64,000 nt of DNA, taken from NCBI GenBank assembly GCA_030706635.1, contig JAUZOD010000002.1, forward strand, positions 1-64,000. The letters are read 5' to 3'. This document shows, one piece after another, positions 8,680 to 52,474 of the stretch. The stretch comes from Bacteroidota bacterium (GTDB lineage: Bacteria; Bacteroidota; Bacteroidia; Chitinophagales; Chitinophagaceae). The notes under the pieces were generated by a model. That model did no database searches and was not told where the DNA came from. It saw only the letters and a program-made list of their open reading frames with translations. Each line of letters opens with the position of its first letter. Within the stretch, counting starts at the first letter, position 1. Made by a program: the position numbers and the translations under genes.

Positions 8680-8933
8680 ACTTTCGCGTCATCCTTGTTT
8701 ATTTCCCGGATGCGCAATCCGGCCGGATTACGCTGTCCAAAAGCGACATTAACATAGAATTTTGAAAAGCCCTGTAAGCGGTATCCGATGGGTATTTTCT
8801 TCTTGCAATTTGCGCAAACAATAAGATATTCCTGGGAAAGACTATCCTCGACGCAATCGGAATTGACATAATAAACGTATCTTGTAAGAGTGAGCCGGGA
8901 ACAGATCCCGGGGCCGGTATCAGATTTATTCAT
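8676..8933 (-). CDS. Small hypothetical protein with a Cys-x2-Cys pair
   Basis: An 85-codon frame in the gap between two plus-strand genes. It has VCANCKKKIPIGYRLQGFSK in the middle and a basic C-terminus. I do not recognise a family. In favour of coding: the frame fills the gap, the Cys pair looks like half of a zinc ribbon, and the start lies just before the desaturase start at 8950, giving a divergent arrangement. Against it: the stop overlaps the end of the aldo/keto reductase, and the length is modest. It may be a fragment of a longer gene. Confidence 0.35.
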   Translation of the reverse strand: MNKSDTGPGICSRLTLTRYVYYVNSDCVEDSLSQEYLIVCANCKKKIPIGYRLQGFSKFYVNVAFGQRNPAGLRIREINKDDAKV

Positions 8934-8949
8934 TAATAGTTCTTTATTT

Positions 8950-9969
8950 ATGGCTTTTATTGATGAGGTTCTTCAAAAACCTTCTTATGGTTGGATGGAC
9001 GCGCAGGGATCGTTGATAAAGCCGACCATCCACCAACTTTTTTCAGAAGCGTTCTCGCGTATTAATATTTTTAAAAGCAAAAAAAATTGGATTTCCCTCA
9101 TCAGCTGGTTTATGGCCATCTGCATGCTCCCGTTCTTTTTCTTTTTTTTATTTGATTTTCTTTCCTGGAAATGGGTCATCGTACTCACTCTTTATGCGAT
9201 GATTGTTATGAGCACCCATGGCACCATCTGGCTTCACCGGTTTTGCACCCACAAGTCCTATAGGTTCAGTAATAAAATCTGGCGGATCATCACACAAAAT
9301 CTGGTGATTAAAACCTTCCCTGAAGAGATCTATGTAGTTTCTCATCATGTGCATCACGTCAAATCTGATCAGCCGGGGGACCCTTATAATCCCCGGGGAG
9401 GATTTATGTATTGCATGCTCTCCGATGTAAATCATCAGAGCATTTCCAGGGATCTGAGTAAAGAAAAATATGAACGCATCCGTCATTTCATGGAGCATAC
9501 TGGCGTTGCCCTTAATTCTTATAATCAATACCAGACCTGGGGTTCCGTATCCCGGCCTTCCTATGTGATTGGCATGTGGCTGCTCAACTGGACTGCCTGG
9601 TATGCCATCTTTTATGTCATTGGCGGCCATGCGCTGGCCTGCTGTTGTTTCAGCGGAGCATTTTTATGGTTTGTTCTGGTAAGGGCCTTTAATTACACGG
9701 GTCATGGTAAAGGGAAGGACAAACATGTGGCAGGAATCGATTTTGACCATTCCAATTTATCTATTAATCAGACCCGCCCCGGCATATTTTCGGGAGAATG
9801 GCATAACAATCATCATCTTTATCCGGGCAGCGCCAGAGCAGGCTTTTTGCCCTATCAGCTGGATCTGGCATGGATCTATATTTACAGCTTGTTTAAGCTC
9901 GGAATGGTTTCTTCTTACAAAGATTCTAAAAAGGAATTTTTAAACAGATATTATACAAAACGACCGTGA
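8950..9969 (+). CDS. Acyl-CoA / fatty-acid desaturase (membrane di-iron)
   Basis: A 339-residue membrane desaturase that inserts a double bond into acyl chains using a di-iron centre and O2. The three histidine boxes are present: HRFCTH at 96-101, HHVHH at 132-136 and HNNHH near 290 (in GEWHNNHHLYPG). Hydrophobic spans lie at about 50-90 and 195-235. The layout fits the delta-9 acyl-CoA desaturase group (FA_desaturase). The start MAFIDEV at 8950 is preferred to 8890, which would overlap the small minus-strand frame and add family-unlike residues. It is followed by a hairpin terminator, so it is probably a single-gene unit adjusting membrane fluidity. Confidence 0.9.
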   Translation: MAFIDEVLQKPSYGWMDAQGSLIKPTIHQLFSEAFSRINIFKSKKNWISLISWFMAICMLPFFFFFLFDFLSWKWVIVLTLYAMIVMSTHGTIWLHRFCTHKSYRFSNKIWRIITQNLVIKTFPEEIYVVSHHVHHVKSDQPGDPYNPRGGFMYCMLSDVNHQSISRDLSKEKYERIRHFMEHTGVALNSYNQYQTWGSVSRPSYVIGMWLLNWTAWYAIFYVIGGHALACCCFSGAFLWFVLVRAFNYTGHGKGKDKHVAGIDFDHSNLSINQTRPGIFSGEWHNNHHLYPGSARAGFLPYQLDLAWIYIYSLFKLGMVSSYKDSKKEFLNRYYTKRP

Positions 9970-9998
9970 ACTGATTCCTGGAATTGTAAACAGGGAGG

Positions 9999-10026
9999 CC
10001 GTCTTGTTGCAAGAAGCGGTCTTTTT
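9999..10026 (+). terminator. Probable rho-independent terminator of the desaturase gene
   Basis: About 30 bp after the desaturase stop there is a stem formed by CCGTCTTG and CAAGAAGCGG with a two-base bulge, a three-base loop, and then TCTTTTT. Confidence 0.5.
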
Positions 10027-10088
10027 GAAAAAGGATTGGCAGTTGATGCCAGGATGCAGCAATGCCGGTTTAATTATCAGGCTGACCG

Positions 10089-10973
10089 CTAATTGAATTT
10101 ATCTTTCACGTATTCCTTCTGGTATTCCTGGGGCGTTTTGCCTGTTATTTCCTTGAAACATTTATAAAAGCCGGCGGCATTATTAAAACCGCTTTCGAAA
10201 CAGAGCTGTTTGATGCTGAGCTTATTTTCGATGAGAAACTTGCAGGCATAACCTATTCTTATCTCCGTTAAGAACTGGGTGAATGTTTTGCCGGTTCTGG
10301 ATTTAAAGTAACGGCAAAAGGAATTGGGCACCAGACCGGCTACACCGGCTATTTTATCCAGGTACAATTTATCCCTGAAGTTGGAAAGCGCATAATCGTA
10401 AATGGCGTGCATCCGTTCATTTTCTGTTTCAGAAAAAGTTTGCTGAAAACTGATGGACGAAAGCAGGTTAAGTTTGGGGATATGTCCAAAATATGACAGG
10501 CATTGAAGCAGCGCAATCATCCGTTCGATACCCTCTGATGTTCTTATTTTTTCGATGAGGACCTGGACGGCAGCCGCATCGTTCGGGCCGACCATAATTC
10601 CCCGTTTTGCCTTGTCCAGAACCACCTTAATAGATTTGGTTTCCGGAAGATTCAGAAAAGATTCACCCCAGAAATGCGCGCAGAAATGAATGACGGTGGA
10701 ATAGACCGTTTCTTTTTTCCTGCCCGTAAAGAAAGAATCATCATATCGCCAGTAATGAGGAAGGTTGGCCCCCACCAGTACGATATCTCCCGGTCCGAAT
10801 CGTTTTATATTGTCTCCCACGAACTGGGTTCCTGTACCCCGGTGAAAGCAGATCAGTTCAACTTCCGGATGATAATGCCAGCGGTTATTGATATAGGGAA
10901 GGGTATCCTGCCTTACACTAAAAGAGTGATGAGGACTGGTAACAACTTTCAGTAACTGGGGTTTCATAATCAA
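10089..10973 (-). CDS. AraC family transcriptional regulator (cupin sensor)
   Basis: A 294-residue regulator. The N-terminal about 130 residues form a cupin-like ligand-binding domain (YHPEVELICFHRGTGTQFVG; GDIVLVGANLPHYW). The C-terminal about 100 residues hold two helix-turn-helix motifs ending in FESGFNNAAGFYKCFKEITG-TPQEY, the HTH_18 signature. Such proteins usually sense a sugar and activate nearby catabolic genes. It is divergent from the zinc alcohol dehydrogenase at 11116, its most likely target. A 19-bp palindrome begins five bases upstream of its start codon and may be an autoregulatory operator. Confidence 0.92.
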   Translation of the reverse strand: MIMKPQLLKVVTSPHHSFSVRQDTLPYINNRWHYHPEVELICFHRGTGTQFVGDNIKRFGPGDIVLVGANLPHYWRYDDSFFTGRKKETVYSTVIHFCAHFWGESFLNLPETKSIKVVLDKAKRGIMVGPNDAAAVQVLIEKIRTSEGIERMIALLQCLSYFGHIPKLNLLSSISFQQTFSETENERMHAIYDYALSNFRDKLYLDKIAGVAGLVPNSFCRYFKSRTGKTFTQFLTEIRIGYACKFLIENKLSIKQLCFESGFNNAAGFYKCFKEITGKTPQEYQKEYVKDKFN

Positions 10974-10977
10974 AACT

Positions 10978-10996
10978 ATTCATTAATTTAATGAAT
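10978..10996. promoter_or_regulatory. 19-bp palindrome in front of the AraC gene (candidate operator)
   Basis: ATTCATTAA-T-TTAATGAAT is a perfect 9+1+9 inverted repeat. It starts five bases before the AraC ATG and lies in the 142-bp gap to the alcohol dehydrogenase. Its position could block or control the regulator's own expression. AraC proteins more often bind direct repeats, so another regulator is possible, and AT-rich palindromes do arise by chance. Confidence 0.4.
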
Positions 10997-11115
10997 GGTT
11001 TTGAAAATATGTTAAAATAATGGAGTACCCGGATAATTGGCTGGCGGATTACCTGATTTTAATCGGTTTCTTTGGATATTGAACAGCCGTTTTTTCACCC
11101 ATCGTGCTGTAAAAA

Positions 11116-12138
11116 GTGTATATGAAATCATTGGTTTGTACGAAACCGGGCGTGTTTGAGTACCAGGAAGCCGATATGCCTGTATTATTACCGGGGTATG
11201 CAATCCTTAAAATTCAACGGATTGGTATTTGCGGAACTGACCTGCATGCTTTTGAAGGAACCCAGCCTTATTTTAGTTACCCGAGGATTCTGGGACATGA
11301 ATTGGCGGGGGATCTGGTAGAGATGTCCGGATCGGGTGATTTTAAGACGGGAGAAGCGATAACCATTATTCCCTATTTTAATTGTGGACATTGCATTGCC
11401 TGCAGAACGGGCAAGCCCAATTGCTGTGCTTCCATAAATGTTTGCGGCGTTCATTCGGATGGCGGTATGGCGGAGTATTTCCAGGTGCCTGATTATGCCC
11501 TGGTCCACGGAGACGGATTGGCTTATGATCAATTGGCGATGGTGGAACCCTTTGCCATTGGCGCACATGGAATCCGGAGGTCGTCGGTAGCTGCGGGTGA
11601 ATTTGTCTTGGTGGTTGGCTCGGGTCCGATTGGTTTGGGAGCCATGGAATTTGCGCGGATTGCCGGGGCTGAGGTGATTGCTCTGGATTTTAATGAACAA
11701 CGCCTACAGTTCTGCAGGGATGTTTTAAATATACCGCATGTTATCCGGGCTGGTTCAGACAACGTGATGGAGCAACTGAAAGAAATTACGCATGCTGATA
11801 TGCCTTCTGTCGTTATAGATGCTACTGGCAATAAAAAGGCGATAGAAAAAGGACTGGACTATCTGGCTCATGGAGGCAGGTATACGCTTATTGGACTTCA
11901 GAAGGAAAATATTTGTTTCAGCCATCCGGAATTTCACAAGCGGGAAACAACGCTGATGAGCAGCAGAAACGCGACACGTAAGGATTTCGAGCAAGTGATT
12001 GACGCCATCAAACGCGGTAGCATAAATCCGTCCTCTTATATCAGTCACCGGGTCTCCTTTGATAAAGTCAAAGACGTATTTGGAAACTGGCTGAACCCGG
12101 CCAGCGGGGCGCTCAAGCCGATGATTGAAATGGAATAG
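11116..12138 (+). CDS. Zinc-dependent alcohol / polyol dehydrogenase (MDR family)
   Basis: A 340-residue medium-chain dehydrogenase. Catalytic zinc ligands appear in GICGTDLHAFEG (Cys39) and GHELAG (His61, Glu62). The structural zinc lobe has Cys90, Cys93, Cys96 and Cys104. The Rossmann motif VVGSGPIGLGAMEFA is near 170-185, followed by an acidic residue (ALDFN) that suggests NAD. The sequence is closest in style to L-galactonate/L-gulonate 5-dehydrogenase, sorbitol and threonine dehydrogenase-like enzymes acting on a sugar acid or polyol. ATG at 11116 or 11122 are both possible starts. It is probably controlled by the divergent AraC gene. Confidence 0.88.
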   Translation: MYMKSLVCTKPGVFEYQEADMPVLLPGYAILKIQRIGICGTDLHAFEGTQPYFSYPRILGHELAGDLVEMSGSGDFKTGEAITIIPYFNCGHCIACRTGKPNCCASINVCGVHSDGGMAEYFQVPDYALVHGDGLAYDQLAMVEPFAIGAHGIRRSSVAAGEFVLVVGSGPIGLGAMEFARIAGAEVIALDFNEQRLQFCRDVLNIPHVIRAGSDNVMEQLKEITHADMPSVVIDATGNKKAIEKGLDYLAHGGRYTLIGLQKENICFSHPEFHKRETTLMSSRNATRKDFEQVIDAIKRGSINPSSYISHRVSFDKVKDVFGNWLNPASGALKPMIEME

Positions 12139-12159
12139 TGCATTTTCTTCTGCCCGTTC

Positions 12160-13305
12160 TTATTCGCAGGAGTACTCTTTACTAAGTAAGTTTCTTTCAT
12201 TGGAATGGATATACCGGCATTGAAGCATGTATCTTTCATAATGGTCAATGATTTCTTCCCAGTTATACTTTGTCGTGATTTTTTTCAGGTTGACGCTGAC
12301 CATCCGGGTTCGGGTCTCCGGATGACATTTGTGTTCTATGAGTTGTTTAATATCCTGAGCGGATGAAAAATAGAAAGCTTCTTTTTCCAAAACGGTTCTG
12401 TTGAAAACATTGTCATGAGCAGCAATCAGACAACTGCTTGCCATGGCTTCCAGAAGAGAAGGGTTGGTGCCGCCGCTGCTGTGTCCATGAAAATAGAGAT
12501 GCGAATAATGGCGCAGGGTATGAGTTATTTTGTCGTCATACAAAGAACCGGTAAACCGGATACGTTTATCACATCCGAATTTTTTAGTCAGATATTTTCC
12601 AAAATTATTTTCAATATTGCCGACCACCAATAACTGCTGTTCAGTATTGCTTAACGAAAAACCCTGCAGGATCATCTCAATGTTATTTTCGGGTTCTATT
12701 CGGGCAATGAGCATCAGGTAACTATCCGGGGTAAGTTCGTAATTCTTCAACACTTCTTCATTCACTTCCGTGAATAGTTCCGAACCGTAAGCAATATATT
12801 CCGTACTGAGATTATATTTGTCCAGATAGTAAGATTGGATAGGGGGAGAATCTGAAATATGAAAGTCACTGAGTCTTACAGCGAGTTTCTCGGCGTATAA
12901 CAAAAACTTCCTGGTGTTGTGAGAATATTTAGATCGTTGCCATTCCAGGCCGTCCATATGGTAGATGATTGTACTACTGCGGGGAAGGAGACGGGTCCAG
13001 ATTGAGCTGCTGGTATAACCCAAAATCAGGATGATATCAAATTTCCTGCTCCGTGCATCGAGCATGCAGTTGAGGTCATATATAAATTGGCCGCTGCATC
13101 CGATGAGGTGTTCGGGATCATAGCAATGAATGATATTAACACCGCGCCAGGTATTTTCAACGTAAGGGTGGTTGTGCGAATTGTAGACACATACTTCATG
13201 ACCCTTGTTTACCAGGCCGCGGGAAAGTTGTTCTGCCAGGCGCTCAAAGCCTCCGTAATGATTGGGAATACCCCTTGACCCTATTATTCCGATGCGGATG
13301 CTCAT
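12160..13305 (-). CDS. Glycosyltransferase, GT4 family (DUF1972-type N-terminus)
   Basis: A 381-residue GT-B glycosyltransferase. The start MSIRIGIIGSRGIPNHYGGF is the DUF1972 signature seen in rhamnosyl- and galactosyltransferases of the RfaB/WsaF style. The C-terminal GT4 half has the nucleotide-sugar segment GHSSGGTNPSLLEAMASS (the Glu of the EX7E motif). It is presumably cytosolic and adds a sugar to a lipid-linked or glycan acceptor. It starts inside the previous gene, with a 62-bp overlap in a different frame, and closes a two-gene minus-strand unit. The start at 13305 is chosen because the family motif begins there. Confidence 0.9.
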   Translation of the reverse strand: MSIRIGIIGSRGIPNHYGGFERLAEQLSRGLVNKGHEVCVYNSHNHPYVENTWRGVNIIHCYDPEHLIGCSGQFIYDLNCMLDARSRKFDIILILGYTSSSIWTRLLPRSSTIIYHMDGLEWQRSKYSHNTRKFLLYAEKLAVRLSDFHISDSPPIQSYYLDKYNLSTEYIAYGSELFTEVNEEVLKNYELTPDSYLMLIARIEPENNIEMILQGFSLSNTEQQLLVVGNIENNFGKYLTKKFGCDKRIRFTGSLYDDKITHTLRHYSHLYFHGHSSGGTNPSLLEAMASSCLIAAHDNVFNRTVLEKEAFYFSSAQDIKQLIEHKCHPETRTRMVSVNLKKITTKYNWEEIIDHYERYMLQCRYIHSNERNLLSKEYSCE

Positions 13306-14383
13306 ATGTATGTTGAATGTGATGGTAAGCTTTTGCAATTCGGGCGGCGGCCTGTGGCCAGGTATAGACTGATAAGATTTTCTCTCTTAGCTTCTTTGGA
13401 AATCCGGAAACGGCGGCTTCGTTGACTGCCTGCAGGATCGAAGCAGGTGATTCCGGATGGCAATAAAATGCGTATCCTTCATAATATTCCCGTGTATATC
13501 CATTGGCCGTGATCACGATGTTACAGCCCATGGCAGCAGCCTCCAGAGATGAAAGTCCGCAGGCCTCAAACCAGCTCGCTAATACATGCACTTTTGCCCT
13601 TTGGTAATAAAGGGCCAGTTCAGACTGCTCGACGAAATCCATAAAATGCACATTGGAGGCTGCGGTCCTGCGGCATTCGCGGTAATAGGTCGGTTGATTG
13701 GGTGCCGCTGAACCAATGATCAGGAGTTTGTATTTTGTGTTATTCAGCGCTTCGATCAGGTTAAGCTGATTTTTAATGCCTTCAATACGGCCTACGCACA
13801 GAACCAGCGTTTCATCCTTACCGATTTGTTCATTATAGGCAAAAACCTCCGGATCCACGCCATTGGACACAGCCACGCAATTTGTATTAAGACCGTACCG
13901 TTGTGTAATTTTTTTTGATTCCATATGAGAATTTGAAAAAACCATCGCGGCATGCGTTAATATCTCCTTAATGCATTTGCGTTGTCCCATCCATACGTAG
14001 GACCTGGTCATTAGTCTCTCCTGTCCTTTCAGGAACCTGGCCATCGCCTTTATATATTCCGCGTTGTCTGCAGATAAAAAACGCAGAATAAAACCCGAAA
14101 TTCCTTTTCTGTAAATCTTATCGAAATCGCTGTAGTCGATTAATATGGTCGTAATAACAAAAGGTTTTCCGGCTTTTTGGATATGAAAAAGTATATCCGC
14201 CGGTCTGGTTATATTGAAAAAATGCAACAAATCGTAGTTTGAATAATTGATCTTCTCCTGGGTGAGTTTCACGTCTGCCGAAATGCCCAGTCGGGCCAGA
14301 TGTTTCGCCGTTTGAAATACTTGTATGGTATCTCCGCCTTTTACTGTAAGCAACGTTGACCTGGTTATGAGAACTACCTTCAT
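13244..14383 (-). CDS. Glycosyltransferase, GT4 family
   Basis: A 379-residue GT-B glycosyltransferase. The N-terminal acceptor domain begins MKVVLITRSTLLTVKGGDTI with the Gly-Gly loop. The donor-binding region includes VLCVGRIEGIKNQLNLIEAL and HVLASWFEACGLSSLEAAAMG, the EX7E-type element of family 4. The start at 14383 is chosen because 22 upstream codons precede the family's usual beginning. It is the first gene of a two-gene minus-strand operon and overlaps the next GT4 by 62 bp. Its promoter lies in the 174-bp gap shared with the divergent nucleotidyltransferase gene. Acceptor and donor are unknown. Confidence 0.9.
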   Translation of the reverse strand: MKVVLITRSTLLTVKGGDTIQVFQTAKHLARLGISADVKLTQEKINYSNYDLLHFFNITRPADILFHIQKAGKPFVITTILIDYSDFDKIYRKGISGFILRFLSADNAEYIKAMARFLKGQERLMTRSYVWMGQRKCIKEILTHAAMVFSNSHMESKKITQRYGLNTNCVAVSNGVDPEVFAYNEQIGKDETLVLCVGRIEGIKNQLNLIEALNNTKYKLLIIGSAAPNQPTYYRECRRTAASNVHFMDFVEQSELALYYQRAKVHVLASWFEACGLSSLEAAAMGCNIVITANGYTREYYEGYAFYCHPESPASILQAVNEAAVSGFPKKLREKILSVYTWPQAAARIAKAYHHIQHTYEHPHRNNRVKGYSQSLRRL

Positions 14384-14557
14384 ATTTGGATCGTATCCCT
14401 GAGTCCATAGGGCGCTGACGGGATAAAATATACATTTAAAACGCATCACAAAACGGGGTGGTTGCCTGACGGTTTTTCAATTCAGTTAATTTAAAAGCAA
14501 TTGAATTTCACGCAACTCCGGCCTTAAAAAAAACGTTTTAACAGAGAATATAATAAC

Positions 14558-15463
14558 ATGCCGGTGGCTTTGAGCTATAGCATAAGGAAGGTGTTGACTT
14601 ACTTTGATCTCTTTGATTACCCGCTTTTAAAAGAGGAAATAGTATCCTTTCTGGATCAGCCTGTACATTTGGATAAGCTGGAGGAGGTCTTGGAACAGAT
14701 GCTCGATGAGCAGTCGGTGTTTCGTTATGACGATTACTATTCTATTCATAAAGATAACGGCCGGGTGATGCAGAGGATTGCGGGAAATCACCGGGCACAA
14801 CCCCTATTGCGTACTGGAGGCAGGATTTCCCGGTTTCTGTACCAGGTTCCTTACGTGCGCGCAATTGGGATTTCAGGTTCTCTGTCAAAAAATTTCGCCA
14901 GGGAGGATGCGGATATTGATTATTTTATTATCACCAGGGCCAACCGGTTGTGGTTTGCGAGAACGTTGATGCATATTTTTAAAAAATTTAGCTTTTTGTT
15001 GGGCCGGCAACATTGGTATTGTCTGAACTATTACATAGATGAGGAAGCACTTGAAATTGAAGAGAAAAATATCTATACGGCCATTGAGTTGATTACGCTG
15101 TTCCCTGTTTGCGGGAATGGTATTTTGCATGAATTCTACCGGAAAAACGGCTGGGCAAATTCCTTTTATCCGAACTATCGCCTGAAAATTGATGATGGCG
15201 ATTTTTCGAAGACGGATTCGAAGCTAAAGCGGATGCTGGAATCGTTGTTTAGCGGCAGACTGGGCGACTGGCTGGACGACTATTTCATGCGGGTGACAAG
15301 CCGGCGCTGGAAAAGAAAGGAAGCCCGCCAGAAAAAGTCAGTAAAAGGCGCCAGGATGGGGCTGCATACGGGGAAACATTTTTCAAAACCGAACCCTTTG
15401 TTCTTCCAAAAGGAAATACTCGATCTGTATAGTGAGCATCTGAAGAGACTCTCCACTAAGTAG
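14558..15463 (+). CDS. Stand-alone nucleotidyltransferase-fold protein
   Basis: A 301-residue protein. The core GISGSLSKNFAREDADIDYF (104-123) is the minimal pol-beta-type nucleotidyltransferase signature: Gly-Ser at 107-108 and the metal-binding Asp119-x-Asp121. Before it is a helical, winged-helix-like segment of about 90 residues (a YFDLFDYPLLKEEI start). After it is a helical domain with a very basic segment near 270-280. This is not a tRNA or DNA polymerase family I can name. It sits between minus-strand glycosyltransferase and methyltransferase genes as a one-gene plus-strand unit, which suggests a part in the same biosynthetic locus, perhaps nucleotidylating a small substrate or a protein. 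Confidence 0.72.
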   Translation: MPVALSYSIRKVLTYFDLFDYPLLKEEIVSFLDQPVHLDKLEEVLEQMLDEQSVFRYDDYYSIHKDNGRVMQRIAGNHRAQPLLRTGGRISRFLYQVPYVRAIGISGSLSKNFAREDADIDYFIITRANRLWFARTLMHIFKKFSFLLGRQHWYCLNYYIDEEALEIEEKNIYTAIELITLFPVCGNGILHEFYRKNGWANSFYPNYRLKIDDGDFSKTDSKLKRMLESLFSGRLGDWLDDYFMRVTSRRWKRKEARQKKSVKGARMGLHTGKHFSKPNPLFFQKEILDLYSEHLKRLSTK

Positions 15464-15480
15464 TATTTCCGGTCAATGGG

Positions 15481-16290
15481 TCAGACCTTCTTCTTCAGGG
15501 AAATTATGTAGTAATCACCGAGGTGGTTCCAGGGCCATTTGTTTTTTAATCTGTCTTCCTTCTTTTTAAGATACCGATAGATCAGAGGATGTTTTTCAGG
15601 GAAACCTTCCATATAACTGGGTGGAACAATACTGCATAAACCTTCCAGACTTAACAGATGGAAGCTGTTGCGAAGTGTGCGGGTAATAAAAGACGGATTA
15701 TAGTACCAGCAGGTGAATTTTTCTCCAGTAACCCGGGCAGGAACTCCTTTTTTGCTAAAGGCTCTCCTGAATGCTGTGCGAAACTTTCCTTTAAACAGCA
15801 GTGCGGATTCCCACAGGCAAAATTTTGGCATGATGACCAGGATGGCCAGGCCCCCTGGATTTAACAGGTCCTGAAAGCTGTTTAATACGCTGGCTAATTC
15901 CGCGGTACAATTTAATCCGGCAAAATTGGAGAAGACCAGATCATAGGGCCCTCTGTGTTTCAGGGAGCTCAATTGGGTAAATGAGCAGCATTCCGTGCTG
16001 ACAGAATCCTGTAAGCCTTTAACGGCCACTTTATTTCTGAGTACGTCTTGCATGCCGGTAGAAAGATCCGTGGCATGTACCCGGTAGCCTTTTTCGGCAA
16101 ACCAAACAGCATCTTCCCCTGTACCGCTGTTTAGTTCCAGGATATGGCCGCCCGGCCGAAGATATTCCTGAACCCGTTCCCTTACTCTTTGCCGTTTATA
16201 CTGAATGATCGTGTTGCCTATAAAGAGAGAATCAAAAATTGCCGACTGTTTCGTAAAAGCTGCGGCAACGAGTTGTTCATTCGTATCCAT
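15481..16290 (-). CDS. Class I SAM-dependent methyltransferase
   Basis: A 269-residue Rossmann-fold methyltransferase. Motif I is HILELNSGTGEDAVWFAEKG (about 50-69), followed by HATDLS (acidic residue of motif II) and the DLVFSNFAGLN motif IV region. The C-terminal part has several basic and aromatic patches that may bind the substrate. It is the last gene of a tight minus-strand operon with three radical SAM genes and another methyltransferase; the gap to the preceding radical SAM gene is only 9 bp. The substrate is unknown and the operon suggests an unusual glycan or lipid. Confidence 0.85.
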   Translation of the reverse strand: MDTNEQLVAAAFTKQSAIFDSLFIGNTIIQYKRQRVRERVQEYLRPGGHILELNSGTGEDAVWFAEKGYRVHATDLSTGMQDVLRNKVAVKGLQDSVSTECCSFTQLSSLKHRGPYDLVFSNFAGLNCTAELASVLNSFQDLLNPGGLAILVIMPKFCLWESALLFKGKFRTAFRRAFSKKGVPARVTGEKFTCWYYNPSFITRTLRNSFHLLSLEGLCSIVPPSYMEGFPEKHPLIYRYLKKKEDRLKNKWPWNHLGDYYIISLKKKV

Positions 16291-16299
16291 AGCCTTAAT

Positions 16300-17769
16300 T
16301 TAGAGTGGAACTGTTTTTTCCAGCTGTCTTAGTTTTCTTTTTTCAAAAAAGGTAGCTGGTATATAATACAATCCGGATAATGCCTTCTTTAAATGGGTGA
16401 ATCGACCGTTTGCCGGATGCTTCAATAACCACTGTAAATTATCAAAAGCGATGTGTTTGCGATAACTTTTGTGGACAAACCGATGTAATTGCTTGTAAAA
16501 TGCGGGAGAATAAGTATTCTGAAACATCAGGGCCATCTCGTCAGAGTCGGTCCAGTTTGTTTTTTGACGTATGTTGCCCTTTACTTTTTCATAAAAAATG
16601 GTTCCCGGCAGCGGATAGGAAACCGATATGCCAATTTCGTAAGGCAATAAATGATTGATCATCCGGATGGTCATATCAATATCTTCTTTGGTTTCCCCCA
16701 GATAGCCAAATTGAATGAAGAAAGAGGGCTTCATGCCCAGTTTTCGGATCAGTCGGGTAGCCTCCTCTATTTGTTGTACGGTAATCCCTTTATCCATAGC
16801 ATCCAGTATTTTCTGGGAACCACTTTCCGCACCCATCCAGATATTATCGCATCCGGCGCGGGCCAGGGCGCGGACGTTATCCTCCTTGAGGAGAAGATCC
16901 GCTCTTGCCTGTATCTTAAATTTGAAATGCAGGTTCTCCGTCTCGATCAGGCTGGCGAATGCATTTACCCAACCCGGTTTGAGTCCAAAAATATCATCAC
17001 AAAACCAGATATGATCAAATGCATATCGCTCTTTGAGCCATTTCAGTTCTTTCACCACATGCTCCGGCGACCTGGCATGATAGCGGTTTCCGTAGATGGG
17101 CTTGGCGCACCAGTTGCATTTAAACGGACAGCCCCGCGTGGTGGCCATATTTAGGGAAAAATAGCCAGCATGATTTATCCATGCACTACGGTAAGGATTC
17201 AGGTCAATTAGATCCCATGCTGGCATCGGTAGCAGGTCAAGATCCCGGATCACTGTACGGGGCGCTGTTTTTACATAATCCTGCCGATCCCTGAAAGCGA
17301 TTCCATTGATCCCGGAAAATCCCGATTTACCATTTTGAATCCACGTAATTAATTCGCGAAGTGTTTCTTCGGCTTCACCCAGTATCACGAAATCAGCTCC
17401 TTTGTCCAGGTATTGCCGATAGCGATCCGTTGCATCCGAGCTGGATACGATTACCTTACAGTCCCGTCCCTTTGCCTGCCTGATCATCCGGAATGCGGCT
17501 TCCCGCATATTGGTCAGGCACATTTTGGTTAAATAGTTGAAACCATCGTCGCAGACAACAAAAAAATCAGGCTTGATTTCGTCCAATACCGAAATGATCT
17601 CCTCCGGCTTATGGCAAAACATGGTATCAAACAGAGATACTTCATTTCCGGCTTCTCTTATGCAGGCAGCAGCGTACAGGGTGCCGAGTGGCGGATAAGG
17701 CTGACCCGTAGCCCATTGCTTCGGGTCGAATCGTAAAAAATAGGAATGCGAAAAAAGAATTTTATTCAT
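16300..17769 (-). CDS. B12-binding-type radical SAM protein (BchE/HpnP-like architecture)
   Basis: A 489-residue protein. The N-terminal about 150 residues follow the B12-binding domain pattern (YPPLGTLYAAACIREAG, then GADFVILGEAEETL). The radical SAM core carries the cluster motif in TRGCPFKCNWC: Cys214, Cys218 and Cys221. A GAESGSQKILDAMDKG motif follows, then a helical C-terminus. Members of this class methylate unactivated carbons, form rings or rearrange skeletons using SAM and often cobalamin. It lies 19 bp after the SPASM-like radical SAM gene and 9 bp before a methyltransferase. Substrate unknown; whether cobalamin is really bound needs testing since no classic DxHxxG is evident. Confidence 0.87.
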   Translation of the reverse strand: MNKILFSHSYFLRFDPKQWATGQPYPPLGTLYAAACIREAGNEVSLFDTMFCHKPEEIISVLDEIKPDFFVVCDDGFNYLTKMCLTNMREAAFRMIRQAKGRDCKVIVSSSDATDRYRQYLDKGADFVILGEAEETLRELITWIQNGKSGFSGINGIAFRDRQDYVKTAPRTVIRDLDLLPMPAWDLIDLNPYRSAWINHAGYFSLNMATTRGCPFKCNWCAKPIYGNRYHARSPEHVVKELKWLKERYAFDHIWFCDDIFGLKPGWVNAFASLIETENLHFKFKIQARADLLLKEDNVRALARAGCDNIWMGAESGSQKILDAMDKGITVQQIEEATRLIRKLGMKPSFFIQFGYLGETKEDIDMTIRMINHLLPYEIGISVSYPLPGTIFYEKVKGNIRQKTNWTDSDEMALMFQNTYSPAFYKQLHRFVHKSYRKHIAFDNLQWLLKHPANGRFTHLKKALSGLYYIPATFFEKRKLRQLEKTVPL

Positions 17770-17788
17770 TGCGTGGATGATGAACTGC

Positions 17789-18850
17789 CTATGCCGGGTT
17801 TTTGCCGGGAGGCAGGTTTAAATAACAGACACATTGAATACAGGTCTCATTGGTGCTGACATCTAAATTTCTTCGGAAGTCGATCGCTCCCGGACTGTTT
17901 AAAATGGCATCCAGTGAAGTTTCATGAATATTTCCTATGGGCTTATGAAAAAAACAGGGCCGGATGGTTCCGTCCGCTTCAACGACGGTGGAAACCCAGG
18001 GGGCGTTGCATTTCTTATAAGGGAAAGGATTCATCCCGTAAAATGCGGCATAATAGGTATATATTTTCTCCAGTTTTTCAGGTGATTCCGCAATGAAACG
18101 GGATTTGAACAAGGGCTCGAAATCACGGAATAGGCATTGGATCACTTCCTTGAGTTCCGGTAATTCTTCGCGCGCCAACAGAATTTCCTGTTGCCTGGAT
18201 TGATCCCAAATCTGCTCCCGGTTAAAGGCCTGACTGCTTACATCTGCAGGCAGGAAACTGATTTGTTTAAGACCCAGATCCCGGGCACTGCGAATGACGG
18301 AGGCCCAGATCCTGAAATTCAGCCGGTGAATAACGGTCCTTCCGGTGATGGGATATTGGGGGTTCAGGGAATGCATATGGGCTATTCCTTCTTTTAATTT
18401 TCTGAATGCCCCCGGAATGTTCCTGATCTTGTCATGGATTTGTTCATTGCCATCCAGTGATACAATAATGTCATTCACCCATTCAAGCAGAGCGCCCGAA
18501 TTTTTTTTCAGGAGAAGACCGGTGGAAAGCAGGGAGATTTTTATTCCTTCGTTCCTGAATATTTCACACAAAGCAAAAAAATTAGGATTTAGCATGGCTT
18601 CCCCTCCGGACATGACCACCTGCTGTGTCCCGAATTTTTTAAGTGTCCCCAGGAGCGTTTCGATATCTGCTTTGCTGAGCTGCTTCAGGTTATTATTTCC
18701 TTTCCAGATATCACACATCACGCATTTGCAATTACATGCGCTGTGCGGCATCAGAATAACCACCGGTAATACGGAAATCCTGCCAGTGTGTAAGGTGCGG
18801 TATCGTTGAATGGTATGTTGGATGGATTGGGTATGCATGCAATTGTTCAT
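17789..18850 (-). CDS. Radical SAM protein with SPASM-like C-terminal cysteines
   Basis: A 353-residue protein with the radical SAM motif CNCKCVMC (Cys39, Cys43, Cys46) near the N-terminus, the GGEAMLNP motif that contacts SAM, and a Cys-rich C-terminus (KKCNAPW, RPCFFHK, ETCIQCVC) typical of SPASM or twitch auxiliary Fe-S clusters. This group includes peptide-modifying enzymes and sugar-alcohol dehydrogenases of the BtrN kind. The start is set at 18850 because ATGA there overlaps the stop of the upstream methyltransferase, giving tight coupling. No precursor peptide is seen next to it, so a sugar or lipid substrate is as likely as a peptide. Confidence 0.87.
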   Translation of the reverse strand: MNNCMHTQSIQHTIQRYRTLHTGRISVLPVVILMPHSACNCKCVMCDIWKGNNNLKQLSKADIETLLGTLKKFGTQQVVMSGGEAMLNPNFFALCEIFRNEGIKISLLSTGLLLKKNSGALLEWVNDIIVSLDGNEQIHDKIRNIPGAFRKLKEGIAHMHSLNPQYPITGRTVIHRLNFRIWASVIRSARDLGLKQISFLPADVSSQAFNREQIWDQSRQQEILLAREELPELKEVIQCLFRDFEPLFKSRFIAESPEKLEKIYTYYAAFYGMNPFPYKKCNAPWVSTVVEADGTIRPCFFHKPIGNIHETSLDAILNSPGAIDFRRNLDVSTNETCIQCVCYLNLPPGKNPA

Positions 18851-19611
18851 TTTTTGACGCGGATCCAGTGGAAGCAATCTCGGCTTCCTAAAAACCTGTT
18901 GAAAACAGAGTTTGGATTTTGCATGATCTTGTGGTTGAATACCTGGAGTTCACGGATGTCATGATGGAAATAATACTCGCTCATTTCGGGATATCCCAGA
19001 GAGTCGTAGTAAGAAAAGGTTCGCTGCTTTGCTGCTTCGATTTCGCCGCTGAGATACAACGGAGAATCGATCAGATGAATTTCACCATCCCGCTTCAGCA
19101 GTTTAAGACATTTGCAAAAGCTGTCTGTCAGCGAATGGAAATATTGAATGGAAGCGGCAAAAACGATTACATCAAAAAGCCGGTCATGCAGTATGCCCGA
19201 TGTGATGTCGCCATAAATAAATCTCAAATGCTCATGTTCGTTAAATACCCGGGCAGCCTGTTGAAGCTCGGTAAAATTTATGTCGAGGCCCGTTACTTCC
19301 GCTCCGGGTATTTCTGAGAGGCCATGGGCCAGCCAGCCATTGCCGCATCCGACTTCCAGAATATTCAACCGTCTTTTTCGAGCGGTCAGATAACGGATGA
19401 GCCGCTGACTGGATCTTTTCCTGATGATCCATTCGGAGAAATGGGAATGTTGGCGGGAGATGTCGGGAAGGCTGGCTACCTCGTCATCGGAATACAGCCT
19501 GTTTTCCATACACCGGATGCTGATGTATTTTTTTTCAAATAAGGAATTCCCGGGATTTTCGTTTCCGGGAAAATGGATATTGGTTAATATGGATGAATCG
19601 GGAAGGGTCAT
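18847..19611 (-). CDS. Class I SAM-dependent methyltransferase
   Basis: A 254-residue protein with an N-terminal helical lead and a methyltransferase core: LNILEVGCGNGWLAHGL (motif I), VTGLDIN (acidic motif II residue) and FDVIVFAASIQYFHSL (motif IV). The core resembles the Methyltransf_11/25 group acting on small molecules. It lies between two radical SAM genes (9 bp after one stop, 4 bp overlap with the next start), so all are probably one transcript. The first about 35 residues are poorly conserved-looking and a later start, such as the Met in CMENRLY, cannot be excluded. Confidence 0.86.
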   Translation of the reverse strand: MTLPDSSILTNIHFPGNENPGNSLFEKKYISIRCMENRLYSDDEVASLPDISRQHSHFSEWIIRKRSSQRLIRYLTARKRRLNILEVGCGNGWLAHGLSEIPGAEVTGLDINFTELQQAARVFNEHEHLRFIYGDITSGILHDRLFDVIVFAASIQYFHSLTDSFCKCLKLLKRDGEIHLIDSPLYLSGEIEAAKQRTFSYYDSLGYPEMSEYYFHHDIRELQVFNHKIMQNPNSVFNRFLGSRDCFHWIRVKK

Positions 19612-19620
19612 ATCCGGGGT

Positions 19621-21120
19621 TTAGAAACCCTGGGTTTCCGGCTGCCGGTATTTCCAGAGTTTGTGTAAAAGTTTGATCTCATAGGGGTATTGATAGAAAC
19701 TAGCCTTATAACGCAGCCCCGAGAGCCATCGCACAAGCCTACGTTTCACTGTGTTCAGCCTGATATCTGAAACGGTGGGATAATAGCCGTTCAGCACCGT
19801 TTCGAAATTCCGGATCTTGTCGATCATCCCCGGAGTCAGCCAGGGCGTCAGGGGATTCTTACGCATGTCGAAATTTTCCCAATGCGGACTTATCCAGTCT
19901 TCCAGCGTCTGAGGGAAGGCGAAGCCCTTGGAGAGCACTTCGGCGTATAGTTCGGAACCCTCTGTGGGAACCGGGCTGTAGGTGTACATGACGATCTCTG
20001 TATGGGGATTGATCGCCTTGATTTTTTTAATGAAATTGATATCGAACTCAATCTGTTCCATCACCTGTTCTTCCGTGGGTGCCGGGGTGCCCAGTACAAA
20101 TGAATACTCAGGGATGATATCGAATTTCTTCATCCGCGCCGCGAAACGCGCGATCTGATCCCCGGTCTGCGTACCTCCTTTGTCGAGCTGCTTCAACACT
20201 TTGTCATTACCACTTTCGGCGCCGAAGAAAATGATCTTGCACCCGGCTTCCCTGATCAGGGTCAGTGACTCATCTTTAAAGCGGTCCATCGTATCAATTC
20301 GGGCCATGCCCCACCAACTCATCTTCTCAGGCTTGATGAGGCGGGAAAATTCCACAGTTCGTTTTTCGGAGACGAAGAAATTATTATCGTGGAACTCGAT
20401 GGCATCTGCGCCCCAGCGATCTTTGATATACTTGATATCCTGGTAAGTATGCAGTGCTGATTTAGCCTTCCACCGGGCTTCATAGGTGGGCACTACTGCA
20501 CAGAACGAACAGGTAAAAGGACATCCTATGCTCGAATGGTAAGCCAGGGTCTTCTCGCCCAAATAGGTTTTGCCGAGGTATTTACCGATAGGGTAGATGC
20601 GATCCAGCTTATCGTATGGAAGGGCCGGCAAGCTGTCCTGCTCAATAAGATCATCTTTAGCTGTCTTCAGCACCTTATCCCCCGATCGGTAGATCAGGTT
20701 TCTGATAAGCTCGTAGGGCTTGTTGTTTTCAAGGGCATCCACCAGACGGGGGAAGGCATAGTCGCCGGGTCCGTTGATAACGAAATCCACATAACCGGAT
20801 TGCAGAATCACCTTGAACTGGTTAGTGGGAAAGTATCCTCCCCAAATCATAATCGTTCCGGGAAAGTCCTCCCTGATCTGCCGGGCAAAGGGAATGGCCT
20901 GTTTTGCCTGGGGGCCGGGCATTACGGTAAATCCGACATATCGATATTCGCCGGTACTCAGGCAGGATGCAATTTTTTTATATGGATCAGTTTCACGGTT
21001 GCCGTCAACGATCACCCAATCATAAATGCCTTCCACCGATGCGGCGATGCTTAATATAGAATTGGGGATGCGGAATTTAGACGGAGCGCTTCGGGGATTG
21101 AACAAAAGAACCTTAGCCAT
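19621..21120 (-). CDS. B12-binding-type radical SAM protein
   Basis: A 499-residue protein and first gene of the five-gene minus-strand operon. The N-terminus (MAKVLLFNPRSAPSKFRIPN) leads into a B12-binding-like domain (VGFTVMPGPQAKQAIPFAR; IWGGYFPT). The radical SAM core carries GCPFTCSFC with Cys200, Cys204 and Cys207, then FGAESGNDKVLKQLDKGG. The long C-terminal part has a VLGTPAPTEEQ motif and basic tail. It is clearly a relative of the gene at 16300 but not a recent copy. The start at 21120 is chosen because five upstream codons are family-unlike. The 69-bp gap to the divergent methyltransferase holds both promoters. Confidence 0.87.
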   Translation of the reverse strand: MAKVLLFNPRSAPSKFRIPNSILSIAASVEGIYDWVIVDGNRETDPYKKIASCLSTGEYRYVGFTVMPGPQAKQAIPFARQIREDFPGTIMIWGGYFPTNQFKVILQSGYVDFVINGPGDYAFPRLVDALENNKPYELIRNLIYRSGDKVLKTAKDDLIEQDSLPALPYDKLDRIYPIGKYLGKTYLGEKTLAYHSSIGCPFTCSFCAVVPTYEARWKAKSALHTYQDIKYIKDRWGADAIEFHDNNFFVSEKRTVEFSRLIKPEKMSWWGMARIDTMDRFKDESLTLIREAGCKIIFFGAESGNDKVLKQLDKGGTQTGDQIARFAARMKKFDIIPEYSFVLGTPAPTEEQVMEQIEFDINFIKKIKAINPHTEIVMYTYSPVPTEGSELYAEVLSKGFAFPQTLEDWISPHWENFDMRKNPLTPWLTPGMIDKIRNFETVLNGYYPTVSDIRLNTVKRRLVRWLSGLRYKASFYQYPYEIKLLHKLWKYRQPETQGF

Positions 21121-21189: not shown

Positions 21190-21942
21190 ATGCCTCTGTT
21201 CGGTCGGTTTAAACAGTCATTTTTCCTGCAGCGCAGTAAGGGAGCAGCATCTTCCGAGGCGTATGATCAATGGTCGGCAACCTACGACAGCCAGCCTGAT
21301 AATCTTATGCTGGCGCTGGATGAACAATTGACCGCTGAGTTGTTGAAGGGAATCAGTCTGCAATCGAAGATTATTGCAGATATAGGTTGTGGGACCGGGC
21401 GTCACTGGGAAAAAATAAGGAAAGGGAACCCGGGAAGAATTTTTGGATTTGATGTTTCCGCGGGCATGCTTGCCATATTAAAGCAAAAATACCCACAGGC
21501 AGAAACCTTTCTTCTAAGAGACAATCATTTGCCTGGGCTGGAAAATGATTCCTGCGATCTGCTGCTATCTACCCTCACCATCGCACATATCAGGAACCCC
21601 GCACAATCCATGAAGGAATGGTGCCGTGTACTTAAGCCGGGAGCCAGGATGCTGATTACTGACTATCATCCGGCGGCTCTGGCCAAAGGCGCCCGTCGTA
21701 CATTCAGCCACAACCATCAGACGATTGCCATCCGGAATTATATTCATTCCATTGAAAAATTAAATAAAATAGCCAGGCAACTGGGCCTGAAGCAGGTGCG
21801 TTTTATAGAGAGAAAGATTGATGAAACCGTAAAGTCATATTATGATAAGCAGCAGGCCATTGCCCTTTACGAAGATTTTTATGGAACGCCCATTATTTAT
21901 GGCTTGCTTTTAATTAAATCCGATGCTGGTTCGCCATGTTAA
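21190..21942 (+). CDS. Class I SAM-dependent methyltransferase
   Basis: A 250-residue methyltransferase. The AYDQWSATYDSQPDN lead is the usual helix before the core in Methyltransf_11/25 proteins; motif I is IIADIGCGTGRHW, motif II FGFDVS and motif IV DLLLSTLTIAHI. It opens a four-gene plus-strand unit (methyltransferase, amidohydrolase, membrane protein, GT9) and overlaps the amidohydrolase start by 20 bp in another frame. The substrate is unknown. The family includes enzymes that O-, N- or C-methylate small molecules. Confidence 0.88.
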   Translation: MPLFGRFKQSFFLQRSKGAASSEAYDQWSATYDSQPDNLMLALDEQLTAELLKGISLQSKIIADIGCGTGRHWEKIRKGNPGRIFGFDVSAGMLAILKQKYPQAETFLLRDNHLPGLENDSCDLLLSTLTIAHIRNPAQSMKEWCRVLKPGARMLITDYHPAALAKGARRTFSHNHQTIAIRNYIHSIEKLNKIARQLGLKQVRFIERKIDETVKSYYDKQQAIALYEDFYGTPIIYGLLLIKSDAGSPC

Positions 21943-24290: not shown

Positions 24291-25307
24291 ATGGAGATAT
24301 TAGCTGTGAAATGGAAGAAGCACCGGGCTCCCCGCAGGGTGCTGGCTATCCGTTTGCAGGCCATGGGAGACTTGGTGATCACCTTGCCTTATTTGCAGGG
24401 ATTGAGGAACATGCTTCCGCCCGGTACGAGACTGGATTTGCTGACCAGGGAGGAAGTAGATGCAATTCCGCGAAATATGAATCTGTTCAACCGGGTTTAT
24501 TCTATCGGGGGCGGACGCATCACGAAAAAACAATTGCTGCACACGGCCATGCTGCTGCCACGGCTCCTGTTAAACCGGTATGACGTGGTGATCGATCTGC
24601 AGGACAATATCATCAGCAGGCTTACAACGAAATGCCTGAGACCAAAATCCTGGTCGGTGTTCGACCGACTTTCAGAAATCCCCGCCGGGGAGCGAACCCG
24701 CCAAACGATTGAGGCTATTGGTCTGGGAACATGTTTCCCGGCTGCCGGGTTTAACCTGGTCAATAGAACGGATGCGATGAAGTTATTGCAGGATAACGGG
24801 TGGATAAAAGAATGTAAGTTGCTGCTGTTAAATCCTGCCGGCGCTTTTGAAACGCGTAACTGGCCCTTAGATAACTATACACGTTTCGCTGGCCTGTGGC
24901 TGAAACGATTTCCCAGAACCCAGTTCCTGATCCTGGGTACAAGCTTCATTGCCGATAAATCGATCTACTTAGAAGAGGCGTTGGGCGGATTATGCATTAA
25001 CCTGGTTAATAAAACAACGCCGGCGCAGGCATTTGCCATTATGCAGGAGGTGAAATTCGTATTATCGGAAGATTCCGGACTCATGCATATGGCCTGGGTT
25101 TCCGGCGTACCCACGATGGCTCTTTTCGGTTCCACTGGGAGCCAAAAGGCAAGACCCCTGGGCGGCCATACCGCATTTGTTGATTCAGCAGATCTGGAAT
25201 GCGGCGGCTGCATGCTGGAAAAATGTAAATTTGCTGACACGCGCTGCCTGACCCGTTATACTCCCGAATTGATATTTAAGAAGTCCATTGCTCTGCTGGA
25301 ATCATAA
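24291..25307 (+). CDS. Glycosyltransferase family 9 (heptosyltransferase-like)
   Basis: A 338-residue GT9 protein. The N-terminus RVLAIRLQAMGDLVITLPYL matches the ADP-heptose:LPS heptosyltransferase pattern with the key Asp; the C-terminal donor site includes LLLNPAGAFETRNWP, VLSEDSGLMHMAWVSGVPTMALFG and a Cys-rich tail (ECGGCMLEKC). GT9 enzymes build the inner core of lipopolysaccharide or related glycans in the cytosol. The start at 24291 gives a 7-bp gap to the membrane protein; the longer frame overlaps it. It is the last gene of the plus-strand unit and converges on the GT4 gene at 25314. The true donor may not be heptose. Confidence 0.9.
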   Translation: MEILAVKWKKHRAPRRVLAIRLQAMGDLVITLPYLQGLRNMLPPGTRLDLLTREEVDAIPRNMNLFNRVYSIGGGRITKKQLLHTAMLLPRLLLNRYDVVIDLQDNIISRLTTKCLRPKSWSVFDRLSEIPAGERTRQTIEAIGLGTCFPAAGFNLVNRTDAMKLLQDNGWIKECKLLLLNPAGAFETRNWPLDNYTRFAGLWLKRFPRTQFLILGTSFIADKSIYLEEALGGLCINLVNKTTPAQAFAIMQEVKFVLSEDSGLMHMAWVSGVPTMALFGSTGSQKARPLGGHTAFVDSADLECGGCMLEKCKFADTRCLTRYTPELIFKKSIALLES

Positions 25308-43556: not shown

Positions 43557-43560
43557 GGCG

Positions 43561-44886: not shown

Positions 44887-44900
44887 CGTTGTGAATTACC

Positions 44901-44912
44901 TTTGTATACAAA
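44901..44912. promoter_or_regulatory. Perfect 12-bp palindrome, candidate GntR operator 1
   Basis: TTTGTATACAAA is a perfect palindrome between the aminotransferase and GntR starts and fits FCD-type GntR sites. It is the first of three related sites spaced 18 and 20 bp centre to centre. Confidence 0.6.
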
Positions 44913-44917
44913 TATAA

Positions 44918-44931
44918 TGTTTACGTTAACA
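44918..44931. promoter_or_regulatory. Near-palindrome, candidate GntR operator 2
   Basis: TGTTTACGTTAACA is a 14-bp inverted repeat with one mismatched pair. Its left half TGTTTACG recurs at 46558-46565 upstream of the SDR gene. Confidence 0.5.
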
Positions 44932-44938
44932 GCATTAA

Positions 44939-44950
44939 TTTGTTTACAAA
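44939..44950. promoter_or_regulatory. Near-palindrome, candidate GntR operator 3
   Basis: TTTGTTTACAAA is palindromic except for its central pair. It overlaps the region immediately upstream of the GntR start codon (44957), which would permit autorepression. Confidence 0.5.
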
Positions 44951-44956
44951 ATTTAT

Positions 44957-45613: not shown

Positions 45614-45631
45614 CCGGCGCAGTGGCCATGA

Positions 45632-46432: not shown

Positions 46433-46557
46433 GTCCAACAGTTTATGCTTATATCCTATCGAATATTTCAAATGATCACTGGTGGGTATCAGAGGTAAGT
46501 CCCGATAATTTGAAATGGATAAGGTTTGAGCCGCAAGGGGAGAGGCAATTTAATAAA

Positions 46558-46590
46558 TGTTTACGGATTGCAATAAAATTAGTTTACAAA
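46558..46590. promoter_or_regulatory. GntR-like half-sites upstream of the SDR gene
   Basis: TGTTTACG (46558-46565) and GTTTACAAA (46582-46590) repeat the half-sites of the operators at 44918 and 44939. They sit about 125-160 bp before the SDR start, in the gap to the DUF3592 gene. Confidence 0.4.
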
Positions 46591-46612
46591 AAATGCAAAA
46601 CAAATTACTCAT

Positions 46613-47068: not shown

Positions 47069-47184
47069 GTTCCGGTTTTGATGGAAACGCTTTCCCAATG
47101 CAATTTCTGCTATTCTCCCGTTCCGGCAACGGAAGAATATTCCAGACTGGACAGGTTCCGGCTGATGCGCTGTGAGGAGTGGAT

Positions 47185-49118: not shown

Positions 49119-49279
49119 CCGATTTGATTTTGTAAACGATTTCCAGCCTACCGTGCGCACAGCAGCAATTTCATTGTGATGGAAAATTACCTTAAATGAC
49201 AGCAGAAACAAAATATCGGAGTGTTTGCCATAGTTAATATATCATACAGCCCTGTTAAACCAAATGGTTTTTGCTTTCG

Positions 49280-49287
49280 TAATTTTG
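49280..49287 (+). promoter_or_regulatory. Bacteroidota -7 promoter box of the uxa operon
   Basis: TAATTTTG fits TAnnTTTG, 27 bp upstream of the uxaB ATG. The -33 box is not clear (a TTAA-containing stretch lies near 49251-49257). Confidence 0.5.
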
Positions 49288-52462: not shown

Positions 52463-52474
52463 CGCTTTGTAAAC

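Follow-up and report, generated by a model that had tools for sequence, protein, structure and literature searches.

The window analysed here is a stretch of 64,000 nucleotides from a Bacteroidota bacterium of the family Chitinophagaceae (contig JAUZOD010000002.1, positions 1 to 64,000 of the forward strand). On its minus strand it carries an operon of five genes in which three radical S-adenosylmethionine (SAM) enzymes are interleaved with two methyltransferases. The genes are transcribed in the order E-D-C-B-A, with gaps of 9, -4, 19 and 9 bp. An initial annotation, made from the letters alone, had described this run, and both the coordinates and the Pfam domains were found to agree with it. 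It had taken the five genes as the unit; they do form one, but the limits of the conserved unit lie elsewhere, since the flanking genes N, F and G belong to it too. The products of the eight genes are the following (lengths in amino acids, aa).

14558..15463, plus strand: N, nucleotidyltransferase-like protein, 301 aa, convergent with A; weak sub-cut-off matches to Pfam Polbeta/NTP_transf_2
15481..16290, minus strand: A, class I SAM methyltransferase, 269 aa; Pfam Methyltransf_25
16300..17769, minus strand: B, B12-binding radical SAM protein, 489 aa; Pfam B12-binding and Radical_SAM
17789..18850, minus strand: C, radical SAM protein, 353 aa, with a SPASM tail of the one-cluster (twitch-like) kind; assigned with Pfam
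18847..19611, minus strand: D, class I SAM methyltransferase, 254 aa, sharing 4 bp with C; Pfam Methyltransf_25/11
19621..21120, minus strand: E, B12-binding radical SAM protein, 499 aa, encoded first in the operon; Pfam B12-binding and Radical_SAM
21190..21942, plus strand: F, class I SAM methyltransferase, 250 aa, transcribed away from E; Pfam Methyltransf_11, 64.1 bits
21923..23089, plus strand: G, deaminase/chlorohydrolase-type amidohydrolase, 388 aa, in a frame overlapping F; Pfam Amidohydro_1, 42 bits

Conservation of the eight-gene cassette

The domains of all five operon proteins scored above the curated Pfam cut-offs. The cluster motif CX3CX2C, reported by the initial annotation as intact in the three radical SAM proteins, was located at C214 in B, C200 in E and C39 in C. 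Every family member of at least 300 aa, window included, keeps it, with 68 proteins for B, 81 for E and 69 for C. The whole genome has 18 places with a Radical_SAM match, 17 of them above cut-off, and three of the 18 fall within 6 kb at the operon. Together with the recurrence of the cassette in other species, this indicates that the clustering is not a matter of chance.

The best 80 of at least 529 relatives of E were used as named loci, of which 51 have full flanks; their hosts are Chitinophagaceae, Mucilaginibacter, Dyadobacter and others. Genes were counted in six-frame translations (counts from picked frames lose genes where a longer opposite frame is chosen), and the hidden Markov models (HMMs) of the cassette families excluded members outside 0.75-1.3 of the median length. 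At the 51 full-flank loci, B and A were present in every case, as was the query E, followed by C (48), G (47), F (46), N (44) and D (36). All eight genes occurred together at 30 of these 51 loci, and complete sets were observed in named isolates, for example in Dyadobacter frigoris and several Mucilaginibacter. The Puia dinghuensis locus (L098) is without C, F and G. Median gaps among the relatives ranged from -4 to 12 bp in the E-to-A run, with a C-B gap of up to 339 bp, and the divergent F-E gap had a median of 179 bp.

More distant Bacteroidota were sampled through 25 loci chosen for B (20-kb stretches, L149-L173), taken from 25 of 27 B-positive genomes; the two others are G000 and G010. 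At these distant loci N was found 25 times, A 23, E 13, G 8, F 7, D 7 and C 3 times, and E or C is also present beyond the 20-kb stretch in several of the genomes. N adjoins B on the same strand at 20 of the 25, often directly upstream. At one of them (L169, genome G061) N, B, A, E, F, G, D and C follow each other in a single same-strand run at 8263-17811.

Co-occurrence was tallied in 395 Bacteroidota genomes, the window's own included, with cut-offs that differ between the families (1e-80 for B and E, 1e-20 for N and 1e-40 for C). B was present in 27 genomes with 12 family and 21 genus labels, and N in 30, namely all the B-positive ones and three more, which makes B, together with N, the most widely retained enzyme of the cassette. 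E (17 genomes) and C (11 genomes) were detected in B-positive genomes only. The Fisher p values for co-occurrence with B were 9e-39 for N, 3e-23 for E and 2e-14 for C, the relatedness of the genomes being ignored. E and B share a contig in 16 of the 17 E genomes, the exception being G345. Judged from gene content, this nested occurrence, N with B first and then E and C, fits a core step with optional later steps.

Fusions were also observed. In one distant genome B carries A at its C-terminus (L164:9740-11923, 727 aa), and at L157 a protein of 662 aa joins N to a family 4 glycosyltransferase (GT4) at its N-terminus. The A protein of L169 (567 aa) contains a GT29-like stretch, which at 20.5 bits is below the cut-off of 23. 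On the combined sequence evidence of synteny, nested co-occurrence and fusions, the eight genes belong together.

Predicted properties of the cassette proteins

The initial annotation had considered the two B12-type enzymes clearly different. Indeed, B and E share 30-31% identity across about 260 aa and fall on separate supported branches. In Pfam, B reached 40.0 bits for B12-binding and 83.8 bits for Radical_SAM, while E reached 32.6 bits for B12-binding, barely over the cut-off of 32.1, and 40.8 bits for Radical_SAM. The tree held 25 chosen sequences, including BchE, HpnJ, HpnR, TIGR04295 and other plasmid-borne relatives. The seven B rows formed one group with a support of 100/100, and six of the seven E rows grouped at 100/100. 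The remaining E row is a distant protein of genome G311; it and a Calothrix/Streptomyces plasmid pair meet the other E rows at one unresolved fork. Several rows of named families are long-branched, which makes their placement unsure.

AlphaFold models were built from 46 (B) and 45 (E) sequences; alignments A3 and A4 contain 45 of 52 and 44 of 44 deduplicated named proteins, respectively, plus the window. The mean AF2 predicted local distance difference test score was 83.8 for B and 80.0 for E, with low-confidence stretches in E at 205-212, 446-455 and the last 21 residues (479-499). The B model shows Rossmann strands at 3-8, 43-47, 69-74, 105-110 and 127-129, followed by a hairpin at 157-161 and 164-167. 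In the E model the strands lie at 3-8, 35-39, 59-66, 90-95 and 113-116 and the hairpin at 142-146 and 149-152. OxsB, TsrM and TokK share a layout in which a B12-binding Rossmann domain of five strands at the N-terminus precedes a beta-hairpin, and the residue below the cobalt lies in the loop after strand 3 of the cited structures (PMC13331322). In B this loop is DDGFN (67 of 67 named proteins, window included, and 15 of 29 distant B-type proteins), and in E it is MPGPQ (80 of 80 named and 11 of 12 distant proteins), proteins of at least 440 aa being counted.

Both proteins display two features of class-1 cobalamin-dependent radical SAM enzymes, namely CX3CX2C in the Radical_SAM domain, and the Rossmann domain with the hairpin. 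In their models, both have a Rossmann domain of the class-1 cobalamin type; the initial annotation had made its reading depend on a cobalamin pocket in predicted structures, and the domain expected to hold it was seen in both. Structure comparison placed the B model closest to OxsB (Z 29.4, 398 aligned residues, 3.8 Å) and AprD4 (Z 28.1, 403 residues, 3.7 Å), with CysS third (26.1). For E the matches were near-tied: AprD4 21.8 (398 residues, 3.8 Å), OxsB 21.1 and TsrM 20.2. Identity to the solved OxsB and AprD4, the best matches of B and the best or near-best of E, is 14-19%. These two enzymes act on sugar-containing small molecules, AprD4 with paromamine according to the title of its structure, and OxsB on a nucleotide (PMC13331322). 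The genome also encodes a MetH activation domain, which indicates that cobalamin is used elsewhere in the cell.

Among the NCBIfam models, BchE (TIGR02026) was the best match of B with 154.8 bits and HpnJ (TIGR03471) the second with 132.9 bits; the order is reversed for E, with 109 bits for HpnJ and 105.7 bits for BchE. All these scores are well below the respective cut-offs of 481.35 (BchE) and 577.6 (HpnJ). The AprD4 model gave 84.5 bits for B and 43.6 for E (cut-off 500), and the B12-binding radical SAM family TIGR04295 gave 99.4 and 35.6 (cut-off 400). In the tree, BchE and TIGR04295 occupy branches of their own, and HpnJ groups with neither B nor E, though it is long-branched. Membership in the BchE, HpnJ, AprD4, PhpK, TIGR04295 or HpnR equivalogs was rejected, as all scores lie below the NCBIfam cut-off and the tree gives no support. 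The TIGR04295 gene on an Azospirillum plasmid is flanked by an epimerase gene and a GT4 gene, so that there is precedent for a gene of the B12 radical SAM type at a sugar locus.

Some further relatives of B and E were seen. A second B-like protein (B2) stands beside the cassette at L162:11611-13002, L170:7000-8370, L173:3897-5279 and L049:14108-15499; that of L049 is 34% identical to B, and those of the other three loci form their own group, sister to B in the tree. B12 radical SAM genes related to E occur on plasmids of Calothrix (L203:4886-9259) and Streptomyces (L204:4838-9319). Unlike the cassette, their common setting comprises another radical SAM gene (labelled moaA in Calothrix), an LD-carboxypeptidase gene, a lysyl-tRNA-synthetase-like gene and then a short-chain dehydrogenase/reductase (SDR) gene. 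A cassette on plasmids was rejected, as there was no match to N and the relatives of B and E were all below 60% identity (22-29% for those listed).

C matched Radical_SAM with 52.1 bits and SPASM with 46.9 bits (cut-off 21.5), in agreement with the SPASM-like Cys-rich tail that had been noticed initially. A full SPASM domain with two auxiliary clusters takes seven or more cysteines. The tail of C holds five invariant ones (281, 299, 337, 340 and 342), short of the set for two auxiliary clusters, so a single auxiliary cluster of the twitch type fits better. Among solved structures the C profile matched SkfB best (residues 23-185), with SkfB and BlsE over the core and BtrN in the tail only.

The signature of Pol-beta-type nucleotidyltransferases is a GS motif followed by a DxD pair. 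In the window, N has GSLSK and then DxD, and G107, D119 and D121 were invariant across 26 sequences (alignment A5). As N is without a Pfam match above cut-off, the label of nucleotidyltransferase is tentative. N relatives without B at the cut-off were seen in genomes G075, G168 and G179; those of G168 and G179 lie in open frames of 675 or 669 aa, about the length of the L157 fusion.

Deaminase/chlorohydrolase-type amidohydrolases have a metal and catalytic pattern of HxH, HxxE, H and D. G carries H57, H59, H167, E170, H197 and D243, all invariant in 18 sequences (alignment A7). Its nearest solved structure by profile, at only 49 bits, was TM0936, a cytosine deaminase/chlorohydrolase-type amidohydrolase with the same metal-ligand pattern; no deaminase model shown attained its cut-off. 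This ligand set and the nearness to TM0936 make a role in the clean-up of by-products possible. Near G, 27 of 81 clustered loci encode a conserved protein (family f18, L059:7031-7981) of roughly 300 aa that has no Pfam match.

Glycan genes around the cassette

The genes that flank the cassette in the window are the following.

12160..13338, minus strand: DUF1972/GT4 glycosyltransferase (Cps2T-like); Pfam DUF1972 73.7 bits, NCBIfam Cps2T 218.3 bits, below its cut-off of 500
13244..14422, minus strand: GT4 glycosyltransferase, a recurrent neighbour; Pfam Glycos_transf_1, 69.5 bits
23117..24283, plus strand: H, membrane protein; no Pfam match up to E 0.5
24324..25307, plus strand: GT9 glycosyltransferase; Pfam Glyco_transf_9, 65.1 bits
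25314..26381, minus strand: J, GT4 glycosyltransferase, recurrent at named loci; Pfam Glycos_transf_1, 75.8 bits

The glycan neighbours in the window are therefore three GT4-type genes and one GT9 gene. A homologue of H sits between C and B in 2 of 20 relatives of a first set (L041 and L050). Recurrent neighbour families at the named loci, identified with Pfam, were GT4, GT2, GT9, DUF1972/GT4, Bac_transf initiating transferases and Wzy_C, and further an ABC transporter, a polysaccharide deacetylase, GNAT and a PMT_2-like membrane protein. With ABC transporters left out, glycan-type genes were present at 76 of the 80 named loci (missing at L072, L075, L090 and L110) and at 51 of the 51 with full flanks; with ABC transporters included, the former count was 77. 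At the distant loci they were found in 15 of 25 cases against none of 20 control stretches of the same genomes (p 9e-6), and in 18 of 25 against 0 of 20 when GT87 and flippase queries were added. Between B and C, genome G327 encodes a Polysacc_synt flippase and two GT87 proteins.

The extension of the cassette to N, F and G and its position, mostly among polysaccharide genes, change the likely substrate. The initial annotation had inferred sequential radical reactions on one substrate, with methyl transfers; such a sequence and a transfer of methyl groups by the B12-type enzymes are both hypothetical. The surroundings also recall HpnJ, which functions in the formation of the cyclitol ether of bacteriohopanetetrol (BHT): this enzyme acts after a glycosyltransferase and a sugar deacetylase, on a glucosamine-bearing hopanoid, at the sugar headgroup of the lipid (PMC12583986), and the polysaccharide deacetylase family stands near the cassette at 23 of 81 clustered loci.

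Two further observations concern carbohydrate genes. In G327 a gene for a PNGase F-type N-glycanase follows three genes after C (L175:16724-18388). In the window, positions 41832-55623 hold an apparent island for the breakdown of hexuronates and amino sugars, with genes named by eye from their translations as altronate dehydratase, uronate isomerase, KDG kinase, KDPG aldolase and nagA/nagB-like.

Candidate pathway and competing explanations

On balance, the evidence leans slightly towards a cassette of eight genes (N, B, A, E, D, C, F and G), with the operon at its centre, whose products synthesise or modify an unusual component of a glycan on the cell surface. N and B would carry out the first committed step, in which N would activate or mark a sugar with a nucleotide and B would apply cobalamin- and SAM-based radical chemistry to an unactivated carbon. 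A would methylate the same intermediate as B, as suggested by the B-A fusion. A second radical change would be made by E, plus D where present, and C would oxidise or epimerise a carbon as sugar enzymes of the BtrN type do. F would methylate, and G would either deaminate an intermediate or clear the 5'-deoxyadenosine and S-adenosylhomocysteine left by the radical enzymes. The glycosyltransferases would then place the unit in the glycan. In such a scheme N, B and A would be the core, and E, D, C, F and G the extension.

Several observations weigh against this proposal. An initiating transferase, a polymerase and an ABC exporter of the tested families were not found in the window. Ten of the 25 distant loci match no glycan HMM, and seven stay unmatched even with the GT87 and flippase queries (L162, L163, L164, L167, L168, L169 and L172); in the genome of L163, GT87 and flippase genes lie farther along the same cluster. 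The contrast with the control stretches is inflated, since the tested families were derived from the surroundings of the cassette at the named loci; in the extended test, some queries were taken from loci that were themselves counted. N scored 17 bits each against Pfam cut-offs of 26.9 (Polbeta) and 21 (NTP_transf_2), and its profile gave chance-level matches to solved structures (best E 0.13). Methylases also match the B model well. Moreover, AprD4, a top fold match, is not known to need cobalamin, and the Rossmann fold alone is therefore no proof that B or E uses cobalamin.

The sequence is compatible with B and E methylating a carbon as well as with their forming or rearranging a ring, and does not decide between the two. 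It is considered unlikely that both build or rearrange a ring without methylating, which would give a carbocyclic (cyclitol-like) or ring-contracted sugar in the surface glycan. This reading is drawn from the best scores of B and E, which are against BchE and HpnJ, and from OxsB, a ring-contracting enzyme, as best or near-best fold. A carbocyclic or ring-contracted sugar residue is not known from bacterial polysaccharides, no search aimed at one having been made. BchE performs a cobalamin-dependent, non-methylating ring formation, and both BchE and HpnJ are placed in the non-methylating, ring-forming set (PMC13142503).

A surface glycan is not the only product that could be considered. The cassette might lead to a free or lipid-linked small molecule, such as a nucleoside-, cyclitol- or terpenoid-type product or a membrane lipid, and be merely co-located with polysaccharide genes, which is possible but less probable. 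The NCBIfam matches of B and E include a ladderane-type lipid model besides BchE and HpnJ, of which the latter, as said, works on a hopanoid headgroup. B has its best fold match in the nucleotide-acting OxsB, B and N stand without a tested glycan gene at several distant loci, and the E-related gene on the Streptomyces plasmid is near polyprenyl synthetase genes. On the other hand, none of the 15 recurrent neighbour families scanned, which were the more frequent ones, was of polyketide, peptide-synthetase or terpene type, and one fusion joins a GT4. The tight pairing of N and B, same-strand neighbours at 20 of 25 distant loci and found without E and C in other genomes, could also mean that this core tailors a polyprenyl carrier or a nucleotide or RNA, with the other genes added for the glycan in some lineages. 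Nucleotides and RNA are the substrates of Pol-beta-type folds, and membrane proteins of the GT87 and PMT_2 types, which draw on polyprenyl-phosphate sugars, recur beside N and B. Such a role of the core is judged quite unlikely, given the N-GT4 fusion in one genome and the lack of any RNA-binding domain in B according to Pfam.

That the radical enzymes modify a ribosomal peptide or a protein, as in ribosomally synthesized and post-translationally modified peptides (RiPPs) or by protein modification, appears very improbable. The best solved-structure match of C is the RiPP maturase SkfB, over residues 23-185, and B and E gave sub-cut-off scores with the ApyD and rSAM_ocin models. The absence of a precursor peptide frame, which the initial annotation had already taken as an argument against a RiPP, was upheld. 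The operon gaps of -4 to 19 bp leave no room for one. Relatives have median gaps of -4 to 12 bp in the E-to-A run, with single gaps that are longer, and none of the small-frame families among 1116 frames at the 80 loci occurred in more than five loci (BLAST 1e-5, which may miss short divergent peptides). The largest family, present in five loci, lies near locus ends and by eye resembles the end of a membrane protein. No RiPP recognition element (RRE)-type domain was found in the cassette proteins with Pfam. The RiPP reading was therefore rejected within the loci searched.

With regard to novelty, radical SAM enzymes that act on sugars are already known. GenK is a cobalamin-dependent example. 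It methylates a gentamicin sugar (PMC4039129), and OxsB and HpnJ are others. A cassette with two separate B12 radical SAM groups and wide nested conservation appears to be new. Among the papers listed in searches of the open-licence literature in PubMed Central, none described it in the title or at the start of the abstract, most subscription papers being outside this scope.

The cassette keeps together two cobalamin-type radical SAM groups that lie below the cut-off of every named model, a nucleotidyltransferase-like protein and three methyltransferases. If its product is a surface glycan, it would represent an uncommon example of a polysaccharide being changed by radical B12 chemistry, and a so far unseen sugar residue could come to light. 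The structure of the cell surface would then be tied to the supply of cobalamin.

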